Shown piece after piece: positions 1 to 3,281 of a stretch of DNA of 11,109 nucleotides (the first letter of the stretch is position 1; each line of letters opens with the position of its first letter). Made by a program: the position numbers and the translations under genes. Under the pieces are notes generated by a model. That model was not told the origin of the DNA. It saw only the letters and a program-made list of their open reading frames with translations, and made no database searches. This DNA is from Sutterellaceae bacterium (GTDB taxonomy: Bacteria; Pseudomonadota; Gammaproteobacteria; Burkholderiales; Burkholderiaceae_F): contig JAUNOJ010000041.1 in NCBI GenBank assembly GCA_030531135.1, positions 1 through 11,109 on the forward strand. Reading direction: 5' to 3'.

Positions 1-1953
1 GTCGTTCAGAAAACCGGGTGGGGCAAGAGTTTCGTTTATTTCATCGCAACCAAAATGTTGCGTGAAGCCGGCGGCGGCCCCGCGTTGTTGGTCTCTCCCT
101 TGCTTGCCTTGATGCGCAATCAGATCGAGGCCGCCCAACGTATGGGCGTGCGCGCCGCTACCATCAATTCGGACAATACCGACGACTGGGACGAAATCGA
201 ACGACAAGTGCTTGCCGGCGAGGTCGATATTTTGTTGATTTCGCCAGAACGCCTGGCCAACGAACGTTTTCGTACTCAGGTTTTGGCGCCTTTTGCCGCA
301 AATGTTTCCATGCTTGTAATTGATGAGGCGCACTGTATTTCCGACTGGGGACACGATTTTCGGCCGCATTACCGGCTGTTGGAGCGCATCGTCAAACGAA
401 TGCCGCCCAATGTCCGATTGCTTGCCACAACGGCGACTGCCAACAACCGTGTGATGCAAGATCTTCAGGAGGTGTTGGGCCCGAATCTTCATGTTTCTCG
501 AGGCGACTTAAACCGTCCGTCGCTCACGCTTCAAACAATTCGTTTGCCGAGTCAAGCCGAGCGTTTGGCATGGTTGGCCGAACAACTCAAAACATTGCCC
601 GGCCACGGTATCGTCTATACGTTGACCGTGCGCGACGCCAATTTGGTTTCGGACTGGCTCAAATCGCAAGGCTTTAACGTCGAGGCGTATACGGGCGAGA
701 CGGGAGAGCGTCGAGAAGAACTCGAACAGGCTTTGCTCAACAACCGAGTCAAAGCGCTAGTGGCGACCACTGCACTGGGGATGGGCTACGACAAGCCCGA
801 TTTGGCTTTCGTCATCCATTATCAGACGCCGGGTTCGGTCGTGGCCTACTATCAGCAGGTCGGTCGCGCAGGGCGCGCGTTAGACTCGGCTTACGGCGTG
901 CTGCTCAGCGGTGAAGAAGAGACCGATATCAATGAGTATTTCATCCGTAGTTCGTTTCCGAGCAGAGCAGAAGTTGCCCAAGTGCTTGAGCAACTCGAAC
1001 AAGCGCCCGACGGATTATCCGTTCCGGAATTGATGCAGCGCGTCAACATCAGCAACGGACGGATCATCAGGACGATGGATTTGCTATCACTGGAGTCGCC
1101 CGCTCCGATTGCCAAACAAGGCACCAAGTGGCAGCTGACAACCTCAACGCTTAAAGAAGAATTCTGGAATCGTGCAGAGCGCTTGACCGAGCTTCGCCGC
1201 CAAGAGCATCGGCAGATGCAAGCCTATGTCGACTTGCCCTTCGGTCAACACATGACATTTTTGATCCGTGCGCTCGACGGCGATGCAAGCGGGGTGACGT
1301 CGCCGAATTTGCCGCCCCTGCCAGAGACTGTCGATGAGCATCTTGTCAGGACGGCCGTCGAATTTCTTCGTCGCAGCACGTTGCCGATTGATCCGCGCAA
1401 AATTTGGCCGTCCGGCGGTTTGCCGCGATATGGCGTTATTGGAAAAATCGCTCCGGAACTCAAGCACGAACCCGGCAAGGTATTGTGCGTATGGGCCGAT
1501 GCCGGATGGGGCGAGCTTGTGCGACAAGGCAAATATCGGGACAAACGCTTTGCCGACGATCTCGTGTACGCCTGCGCACGGATGGTTCGCGATTGGAATC
1601 CGCAACCGGCGCCGAAATGGGTAACTTGCGTGCCTTCGTTGCGTCATCCGGAATTGGTGCCGGATTTCGCACAACGCTTGGCTTCGGAGTTGGGGCTGCC
1701 GTTTCGCATGGTGATTGCAAAAACGGATGAAAGACCGGAACAGAAAACAATGGCAAACAGTGTTCAACAGGCCAATAATTTGGACGGTGCGCTGGCACCC
1801 AACGGTGAGCCGATACCGCACGAACCGGTCCTTTTGGTCGACGATATGGTCGACTCGCGTTGGACAATGACGGTGATGGCGTGGTTACTGCGCAAAAACG
1901 GCAGCGGCCAAGTTTGGCCGATCGCTCTGGCACAGACGGGAAAAGGCAAATGA
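1..1953 (+). CDS. RecQ-like DEAH helicase fused to a C-terminal phosphoribosyltransferase-like domain (5' partial)
   Basis: The frame is open from base 1, so the true start lies upstream; 650 residues are visible. The first codons give the Walker A loop (QKTGWGKS, residues 3-10), so only motif 0 and a short N-terminus are missing. DEAH is at 108-111 followed by [10 protein letters not shown], the RecQ signature. The TTATA motif III and the motif [10 protein letters not shown] (about 285-292) follow. A winged-helix-like stretch covers about 315-385. Next comes the RecQ zinc-domain region (about 399-430), which has no cysteines. The C-terminus (about 470-650) is PRTase-like, with [13 protein letters not shown] at 610-622 resembling a PRPP loop, although the usual small residue is Arg620. 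Expected role: ATP-driven 3'-5' DNA unwinding in the cytoplasm; the PRTase role is unknown. The stop overlaps the next start (ATGA), implying translational coupling with the DprA-like gene. The family resembles RqlH-type helicases rather than housekeeping RecQ. Confidence 0.93.
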
Positions 1954-3281
1954 CAAACGAACTTTCTTTGAATACGCAAGCAATTTTGTTACTGACGGCA
2001 CCCTTGATTGCGGGGCGGCGCGACAAAACTCCCGATTTGCTCACACCCGGCGAATATAAGAGGTTGGCGCACCGATTGTTGGAACTTCGTCGTCAGCCGT
2101 CCGATTTGCTCTCGCCCGATGCAGGAGCACTGTTGCGCGATTGTGCTTCGGTGATTGATGAAAATCGTCTTAAAGAGTTGTTGGGGCGCGGATTTCTGCT
2201 CAGTCAGGCATTCGAGCGGTGGCAAGCGCGCTCCGTTTGGGTGGTGAGTCGCGCCGACGCCGACTATCCGCGTCGTTTAAAGACGCTTTTGCGCGAAGAT
2301 GCTCCGGCCGTGCTCTATGGTTGCGGCGATAGACAATTGCTCAAAACCGGTGGCTTGGCGATGGTAGGCTCCCGCCATGTGGATGAGGCGCTGACGGACT
2401 ATACGATTCAAATCGGCCGTCTTGCCGCGCAAGCCGGTAAAACCGTTGTTTCGGGTGGTGCCAAAGGCATCGATCAGGCAGCGATGAAAGGTGCGTTGGA
2501 AGCCGGCGGATACGTCTGCGGCATACTTGCCGACAGTTTGGAAAAAGCCGCGATGAAGGCGGAAAACCGAGATCCGATTCGCGAAGGTCGTTTGGTCTTG
2601 GTCTCGCCCTACGATCCGAATGCGGGTTTCAATACCGGCAATGCCATGCAACGCAACAAGCTCATTTACGCCTTTGCCGATTGTGCGCTTGTGGTCAATT
2701 CCGATCTGCAAAAAGGCGGAACGTGGGCCGGAGCCTTAGAGCAACTTAAAAAGTACAAGTTCGGGCCGCTCTTCGTGCGATCGACCGGGGCTGCCTCCAA
2801 AGGCTTGGATGCTTTGCATGCGTTGGGTGCAATTTCTTGGCCTAACCCTCAAGATGCGGCATCGTTTAAGGACGTTTTCAATGTAAAAATGCTTGTTGAA
2901 CCGGAGCAGGCGGATTTGTTTGCTACACCGAAACCGGATATCCCCGACTTTGAATCTCTACAACCGCTTGTAAGTGCGCCTGTTGCAGAGTCTGAGAGCA
3001 AAGTTGAGGATTCGGTTGTAGAGCAAACCGATCTCAAGGCGCAAGAAAAACCATCCGAGGCTGAAAAAGAGATGTCGACAGAGGGTTCACCTGCCGATGT
3101 TCTTTATGAAACCGTCAGAAAGGTGATGCATGCGCTTTTAACGAGACCGATGTCCGAAGACGATGTGGCCGAGACTTTGCAAATCACCAAGGCGCAAGCC
3201 AAGGCATGGTTGAGTCGCATGGCCGAAGAAAATCTTCTTGACAAGCAAAAGCGTCCTGTGCGTTATGTCAACAAGGTCTGA
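1950..3281 (+). CDS. DprA/Smf-like DNA-processing protein with C-terminal winged helix
   Basis: 443 residues. The ATG at 1950 is chosen because it overlaps the upstream stop as ATGA and has AAAAGG a few bases before it; the longer open frame from 1860 lies inside the helicase. The Rossmann-like DprA core spans about 95-300. It shows AMVGSR (137-142), [10 protein letters not shown] (166-175) and a late segment [10 protein letters not shown] followed by SDLQKGGTW (235-259), matching DprA's phosphate-binding loop and its RN-x-I-x-G-like helix. The usual GID-xxAH histidine is Met179 here. A low-complexity acidic linker (about 318-380) leads to a DprA-type winged helix (382-443, ending RPVRYVNKV). 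True DprA loads RecA on incoming single-stranded DNA. This copy is divergent and coupled to a RecQ-PRTase gene, so a partner, restraining or antitoxin-like role is more likely than transformation. That role is inference. Confidence 0.9.

Follow-up and report, generated by a model that had tools for sequence, protein, structure and literature searches.

The stretch of DNA analysed here (the window, 11,109 bases) is the entire contig C261 of a draft Sutterellaceae genome (2.11 Mb in 403 contigs, 87.6 % complete). At its start lie two overlapping genes, rqlH and rqlI, which are an ordinary member, of a zinc-free subtype, of a known toxin-antitoxin and putative defence family, RqlHI or PsyrTA. The pair is most likely a toxin-antitoxin module, and a role in phage defence is possible. 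The explanation that we favour, and regard as quite probable, is a horizontally gained RqlHI/PsyrTA operon in which the DprA-like partner, RqlI, restrains a phosphoribosyltransferase (PRTase) toxin, RqlH, and phage or damage triggers arrest. It starts from the anatomy of the two genes, their kept catalytic residues, conserved adjacency and correlated divergence, and a patchy presence with changed gene order.

Assignment of the pair to RqlHI/PsyrTA

Both proteins are matched over nearly their full length by PADLOC profiles, RqlH by PsyrT (residues 1-648, 885.7 bits) and RqlI by PsyrA (residues 5-440, 455.6 bits), and control proteins are not, so we assign the pair to the RqlHI kind found in Escherichia coli F11, alias PsyrTA, which PMC8790059 credits to Sberro 2013 as a toxin-antitoxin family. 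The controls were the genome's other DprA-family protein, which at an E-value of 1e-20 matched ShosA alone (104.5 bits) and not PsyrA, and a 287-aa fragment of a housekeeping-type RecQ from a genus relative, which scored 496.6 bits with DpdF versus 273.7 bits with PsyrT. Membership of a Dpd system was rejected for the window helicase (best DpdF profile 284.6 bits versus 885.7 bits for PsyrT). We note that a PsyrT match alone is no proof of a toxin-antitoxin pair, because solo RqlH proteins match this profile as well. These include those of Arthrobacter (L063, 713.5 bits) and Halanaeroarchaeum (819.6 bits), for which tblastn found no partner in the 6 to 8 kb downstream.

The window holds a RecQ-type helicase core with intact Walker A and DEAH motifs, a C-terminal PRTase fused to it (recognized by PADLOC PsyrT, a fold model and a ComFC match; the Pfam PRTase model alone scores below its cut-off) and an adjoining, overlapping downstream DprA-like gene. 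The RecQ-type four-cysteine zinc module, which is common in the family and for which we saw no stated requirement, is absent. An earlier reading of this DNA (the original prediction) had described a RecQ-type helicase with a tail resembling a loop that binds phosphoribosyl pyrophosphate (PRPP), overlapping a DprA-like gene by 4 bases, and both the sequence and the PADLOC profiles bear this out. The two systems it named, RqlHI and ShosTA, were apt; the PADLOC scores place the pair in the first, RqlHI being PsyrTA.

Residue conservation was assessed in an alignment of 84 sequences, namely the window and 83 of 93 loci; L083, L085, L086, L092, L117, L131, L142, L147, L148 and L149, with an incomplete or broken helicase, were left out. 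The features of the pair, with window coordinates and strand, are as follows.

1..1953, + strand: rqlH (psyrT), RecQ-type helicase fused to a ComFC-like phosphoribosyltransferase (PADLOC PsyrT, 885.7 bits, profile positions 42-686 of 689)
16..30, + strand: Walker A motif GWGKS (Lys 9, kept in 84/84 aligned sequences)
322..333, + strand: DEAH box (Asp 108 and Glu 109, both kept in 84/84)
1243..1320, + strand: site of the RecQ-type zinc module, lacking all four cysteines (alignment of 84 sequences and tree)
1498..1950, + strand: phosphoribosyltransferase (ComFC-like) domain
1837..1866, + strand: PRPP-loop region, residues 613-622 (Asp 614 kept in 83/84, Asp 615 in 82/84, Trp 621 in 84/84)
1950..1953, + strand: ATGA, start/stop codon overlap of rqlH and rqlI (read from the sequence)
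1950..3281, + strand: rqlI (psyrA), DprA-like partner, 443 aa from its ATG, putative antitoxin by homology (PADLOC PsyrA, 455.6 bits, profile positions 3-395 of 398)
2220..2720, + strand: DprA Rossmann (SLOG-like) core of rqlI
2907..3080, + strand: rqlI linker, predicted to be disordered (predicted local distance difference test score, pLDDT, <50 at residues 320-322 and 324-377)
3090..3272, + strand: C-terminal winged-helix domain of rqlI

The rqlH reading frame spans positions 1-1953 without its start, the 5' end having been lost at the contig edge. As the alignment to a 92 % identical, 692-aa relative (P0002) begins at residue 43 of that protein, about 42 N-terminal residues are missing; the missing 5' end was not found on other contigs of the draft genome. 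The ATGA overlap would allow translational coupling of the two genes.

When scored against the DprA equivalog model (TIGR00732, cut-off 191.15), RqlI reaches 85.6 bits and the genome's other DprA-family protein, at 140.4 bits, is likewise below the cut-off. The presence of this other gene rules out the possibility, raised previously, that rqlI is the only DprA of the genome. It also bears on a reading as natural-transformation genes, with the helicase, the ComFC-like PRTase and DprA handling incoming DNA. This role was rejected, and we consider it highly improbable: beside the separate DprA-family gene, the draft genome has no ComEC-type Competence match (PF03772, 0 of 1 in a genome 87.6 % complete), and none of the nine genus relatives examined has the full-length helicase. 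Searched for the comF family, the draft genome gave a single match, far below the cut-off.

The phosphoribosyltransferase domain and toxicity

What is known of toxicity comes from the E. coli F11 homologue. According to PMC4670107, RqlH alone causes SOS induction, filamentation and growth loss in E. coli, and RqlI interacts with RqlH and eases the harm done by the wild-type protein. The PRTase domain is reported there to be required for toxicity but not to be toxic alone. Changing DIVD, or D663 alone, abolished growth inhibition, SOS induction and filamentation, leaving a modest effect on viable counts, and D663A, in the PRPP pocket, removes nearly all harm. The helicase-dead K49A and D148A mutants reached normal density, yet lost viability and had higher SOS (PMC4670107).

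The PRPP-pocket aspartates needed for toxicity in E. coli RqlH are present in the window as D614, D615 and D618, and DMVD stands at the position of DIVD, the segment mutated in F11, in the E. coli plasmid homologue L034 (used in place of the F11 protein; its helicase is 49 % identical to that of the window). By homology with the F11 pair, the window RqlH would be toxic through its PRTase pocket, and RqlI would interact with it, restrain it and relieve the toxicity. Of the earlier claim that the DprA-like protein restrains a genotoxic helicase-PRTase, the restraint of a toxic protein is borne out for the F11 homologue (PMC4670107). The label 'genotoxic helicase' is not the best description, because toxicity needs the PRTase and helicase-dead mutants still lose viability with more SOS.

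The fold model of the PRTase matches ComFC and ShosT, with ComFC the best among re-aligned solved folds, and that of RqlI matches DprA and ShosA. Foldseek alone gives the PRTase low TM-scores (0.29-0.44, query-based) and places ComF third by E-value, after an adenine phosphoribosyltransferase (APRT) and 7f06. When the PRTase alignment was searched as a profile against solved structures, helicases swamped the result, since three of its rows are full length. The conserved Trp-bearing PRPP loop and the ComFC/ShosT folds make the PRTase chemistry directly testable.

Adjacency and correlated divergence

Genome loci were collected by scanning contigs with a 13-helicase alignment, the helicase alone being the criterion, and the best 80 of at least 592 relatives were taken, a set biased to window-like sequences. 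At least 1 kb follows the helicase stop in 75 of the 80 loci, and a PsyrA-like match in the same direction was found in 69 of these, so the co-occurrence that the original prediction proposed to check holds across relatives. The 69 include L085 and L117, where the helicase frame ends early and the partner lies further on. Distances among helicases and among partners are correlated (r=0.845 for 69 pairs; the highest of 2000 permutations was 0.184; kinship is ignored in this comparison). Near-identical copies of the L034 pair are held by 53 of 5,426 complete E. coli genomes, in a search blind to distant alleles, and all 54 matching E. coli records cover 80 % or more of the two-gene L034 query at a single place. 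Among 279 matching plasmid records, eight regions were opened; annotated DprA adjoins the helicase in three and a short, 268-codon partner frame in one.

Departures from the standard arrangement were also seen. On Sinorhizobium meliloti pSymB (L033:9950-10753), a full-length helicase 77 % identical to that of the window is followed by a 268-codon partner frame, with no annotated DprA and with transposase genes nearby; the antitoxin is apparently broken beside an intact toxin gene. Partners of about 310-365 codons, in L076, L082, L096, L100, L105, L108, L109, L141 and others, would be without the C-terminal winged helix, though frameshifts are possible. Such short partners accord with the dispensability of the winged helix reported in E. 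coli (PMC4670107).

A zinc-free branch

The four cysteine positions, which from known RecQ anatomy we take to be the RecQ-type zinc module, divide the aligned helicases cleanly. None of the four is present in the 23 sequences that are at least 65 % identical to the window (window included), and three or four are present in all 61 sequences that are at most 56 % identical. When the zinc stretch was removed and a tree built by a quick method, the 23 zinc-free sequences formed one side of a branch (Shimodaira-Hasegawa-like approximate likelihood ratio test, SH-aLRT, 100), with one state change. By record titles, this group, 65-79 % identical to the window, spans 13 phyla plus plasmid and viral contigs, though many of the records are metagenome bins and are possibly misbinned. 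The main text of PMC4670107 nowhere uses the word zinc.

One member, L081 from Mycobacterium colombiense, is a zinc-free paired copy in an actinomycete, though Gram-positives are reported to have RqlH alone nearly always. Five helicases of the branch are extended at the N-terminus: P0106 and P0118 (995 aa), P0011 and P0113 (938 and 942 aa) and P0013 (837 aa). Two of the five bear PF13280 (presumably WYL), PF26107 and PF26109, and the three others show no extra Pfam domain; these may be genuine fusions, or the frame may run on from the gene upstream.

The zinc-free branch offers natural variants for asking whether the zinc module or the DprA-like partner makes the DNA contact. A bolder idea, which we think unlikely to be right as a whole, is that the window represents a distinct, mobile, zinc-free RqlH branch that lost the zinc module but retained the helicase motifs, the ComFC-like PRTase with the invariant tryptophan of its PRPP loop and, nearly always, the DprA-like partner, that the pair in this branch is a portable sensor of single-stranded DNA built of competence-like parts (helicase, ComFC-like PRTase and DprA), that the partner took over the DNA contacts of the zinc module and that the output is PRPP-dependent arrest of the infected cell.

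Probable horizontal gain

The comparison sets were 10 genomes of the genus and 67 of the family. At an E-value of 1e-100 the helicase was found in one of the 67 family genomes, the window's own. Some helicase match occurs in all 10 genus genomes, but it spans the whole query in the window's own genome only; the nine genus relatives examined lack a full-length copy. Six of the nine gave a strong dacC match, and each of these has the C-terminal end of an HrpA-like helicase (named by eye) immediately ahead of dacC. In the window, rqlHI occupies this hrpA place before dacC, and the hrpA of the host is on another contig, followed by LysR-like and aspA-like frames (by eye). The G+C content at third codon positions (GC3) is 0.547 for rqlI, below the range of 0.647-0.714 of the six downstream genes, and 0.619 for rqlH, slightly below it. 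By path in the tree (quick method), the rows nearest to the window comprise two records of Gammaproteobacteria, two viral contigs and one Sinorhizobium plasmid; in the protein search, betaproteobacteria such as Ralstonia and Neisseria are likewise at 78-79 % identity. The pair thus looks to have been acquired horizontally by this lineage.

Downstream of rqlI are genes for a D-Ala-D-Ala carboxypeptidase (here dacC), an Asp/Glu racemase, an IclR regulator, an Fe-S protein, PyrD and a molybdopterin oxidoreductase (family matches). Among the six genus relatives, dacC, iclR and the Fe-S gene are shared by 6/6 and the racemase gene by 5/6, in the same order and at 54-83 % identity. As this downstream gene order is kept, a foreign contig misplaced in the draft genome is unlikely. 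The best named relative of the window racemase, among 120 listed, is from Duodenibacillus sp. (72 % identical), a gut betaproteobacterium. The window copy is apparently a lineage-specific gain in a gut bacterium and introduces no new principle.

A solitary RqlI-like gene was found in 5/5 genomes of another genus of the same family, g2 (L004:1501-2763 and L164-L168); the protein is 32-34 % identical to that of the window in the two compared. This genus has no RqlH at an E-value of 1e-100, and there was no rqlH match in the two 13-14 kb surroundings examined. In the one protein aligned, that of L004, the DprA motifs, including RNK, are not kept. The solitary RqlI may be an orphan antitoxin in other use or may give immunity against incoming pairs.

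Defence context

PsyrTA is listed among defence systems, with credit to Millman 2022, in PMC10121019, and a separate DprA-PRTase pair protects from phage, with DprA suggested to sense DNA (PMC9122126). Two plasmids carry the pair within defence operons. In the E. coli one, a type I restriction operon holds it, with hsdM-hsdS on one side and hsdR on the other; in the Acinetobacter one it sits in a BREX operon, flanked by pglX and by a DUF262 gene that precedes pglZ. The proximity to defence genes that had been proposed as a check was examined using eight restriction/BREX proteins from these two operons as reference (E-value 1e-6). A homologue was found in 13/80 genome loci versus 0/54 control loci (286 kb); the control is small and from other taxa, and the count of 13 is rough, as weak matches are among them and hsdR can also pick up other helicases. 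The viral contig L145 holds a complete pair plus hsdM- and hsdR-like matches.

These settings help to weigh a plain addiction module, in which the pair persists since cells that lose it die, and is of no benefit to the host. The toxin-antitoxin behaviour in E. coli (PMC4670107), the plasmid copies and the adjacency, overlap and correlated divergence of the genes would all suit it. Nesting in defence operons, together with the rough survey, would not, and the helicase and DNA-binding folds seem too elaborate for a mere addiction toxin; we consider this explanation rather unlikely.

Proposed mechanism

In the toxin-antitoxin operon with triggered arrest that we favour, RqlH (PsyrT) would load onto DNA via its RecQ helicase core, and its ComFC-like PRTase would carry the PRPP-binding loop needed for toxicity. 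RqlI (PsyrA), translationally coupled to it, would bind RqlH and silence the PRTase. Phage or damage would make abnormal single-stranded DNA, which the DprA-like fold of RqlI, or the helicase, may sense, and the restraint would be lifted. Freed RqlH would then halt the growth of the infected cell by PRPP-dependent damage. The sensing of single-stranded DNA, like that of foreign or damaged DNA in the original prediction, is a part that we infer, and so are the PRTase substrate and a defence role in this host.

Several observations weigh against this proposal. No partner was seen in six of the 75 loci (L078, L086, L090, L113, L132 and L139), though the helicase frame of L086 ends early and the downstream sequence of L090, L113 and L139 is short (1.0 to 1.4 kb). 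Nor did tblastn find one in four of the eight plasmid regions, and RqlH occurs without RqlI in 55.3 % of the strains surveyed in PMC4670107, mostly Gram-positive. Because many bacteria and loci keep RqlH without RqlI, RqlH is not always toxic. The PRTase ligand may also differ in the window, as the PRPP loop is DSRWT where ComFC has TTGTT. A 2025 study of PsyrTA from E. coli NILS69 detected no protection against phage under its test conditions and noted poor growth of the strain expressing it (PMC12409345). The defence activity suggested by the original prediction agrees with the cataloguing of PsyrTA (PMC10121019) and went undetected in this one test. On the downstream side of the pair, the side that the window covers, there is no defence gene, and dacC, the racemase and IclR genes come next.

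Some of these observations suit a DNA-repair or replication-restart pair, a possible explanation though in our view a doubtful one, in which RqlH remodels stalled forks, RqlI recruits or limits RqlH on single-stranded DNA, and toxicity without RqlI is a by-product of an unregulated helicase-PRTase. DNA unwinding is reported for RqlH of Mycobacterium smegmatis, a protein found without RqlI, and the authors of PMC4670107 propose a beneficial joint role of RqlH and RqlI on bacterial DNA. A solo RqlH lies in an ordinary-looking Tsukamurella setting, before yajC-secD-secF, and the failure of one PsyrTA to protect from phage (PMC12409345) also fits. However, presence in one of 67 family genomes, copies on plasmids and viral contigs, and nesting in restriction and BREX operons point more to a mobile module of defence or addiction than to a core repair gene.

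Comparison with known systems

The PRTase toxin of ShosTA is, as we understand it, a separate gene, and ShosT carries no RecQ helicase. The window differs by its helicase fusion from the ShosTA structures (8zva, 8zvb, 8zvc, 8zvd and 9vzo). Membership of ShosTA was rejected, as the window encodes one fused helicase-PRTase polypeptide and its partner scores 455.6 bits with PsyrA versus 85.1 bits with ShosA.

In the ComFA-ComFC-DprA set of transformation, helicase/ATPase, PRTase and DprA functions come together as in the window. However, ComFA is a separate DNA-dependent ATPase, unlike the window fusion, and ComFC, whose loop is DDIITTGTTL, has its own zinc finger (PMC9005727).

The closest likeness is to RqlHI itself. 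L034 scores 1018.9 bits with PsyrT and 576.8 bits with PsyrA, and relative to it the clade of the window is without the four zinc cysteines and has a PRPP loop that is DSRWT rather than DSGWT. The original prediction had set the single helicase-PRTase polypeptide apart from RqlH, a contrast that falls because in RqlH, too, the RecQ helicase ends in a PRTase tail (PMC4670107). In the RqlH-RqlI pair of extraintestinal E. coli, as in the window, this fusion comes first, and the DprA-like gene, with its C-terminal helix-turn-helix, adjoins or overlaps it (PMC4670107).
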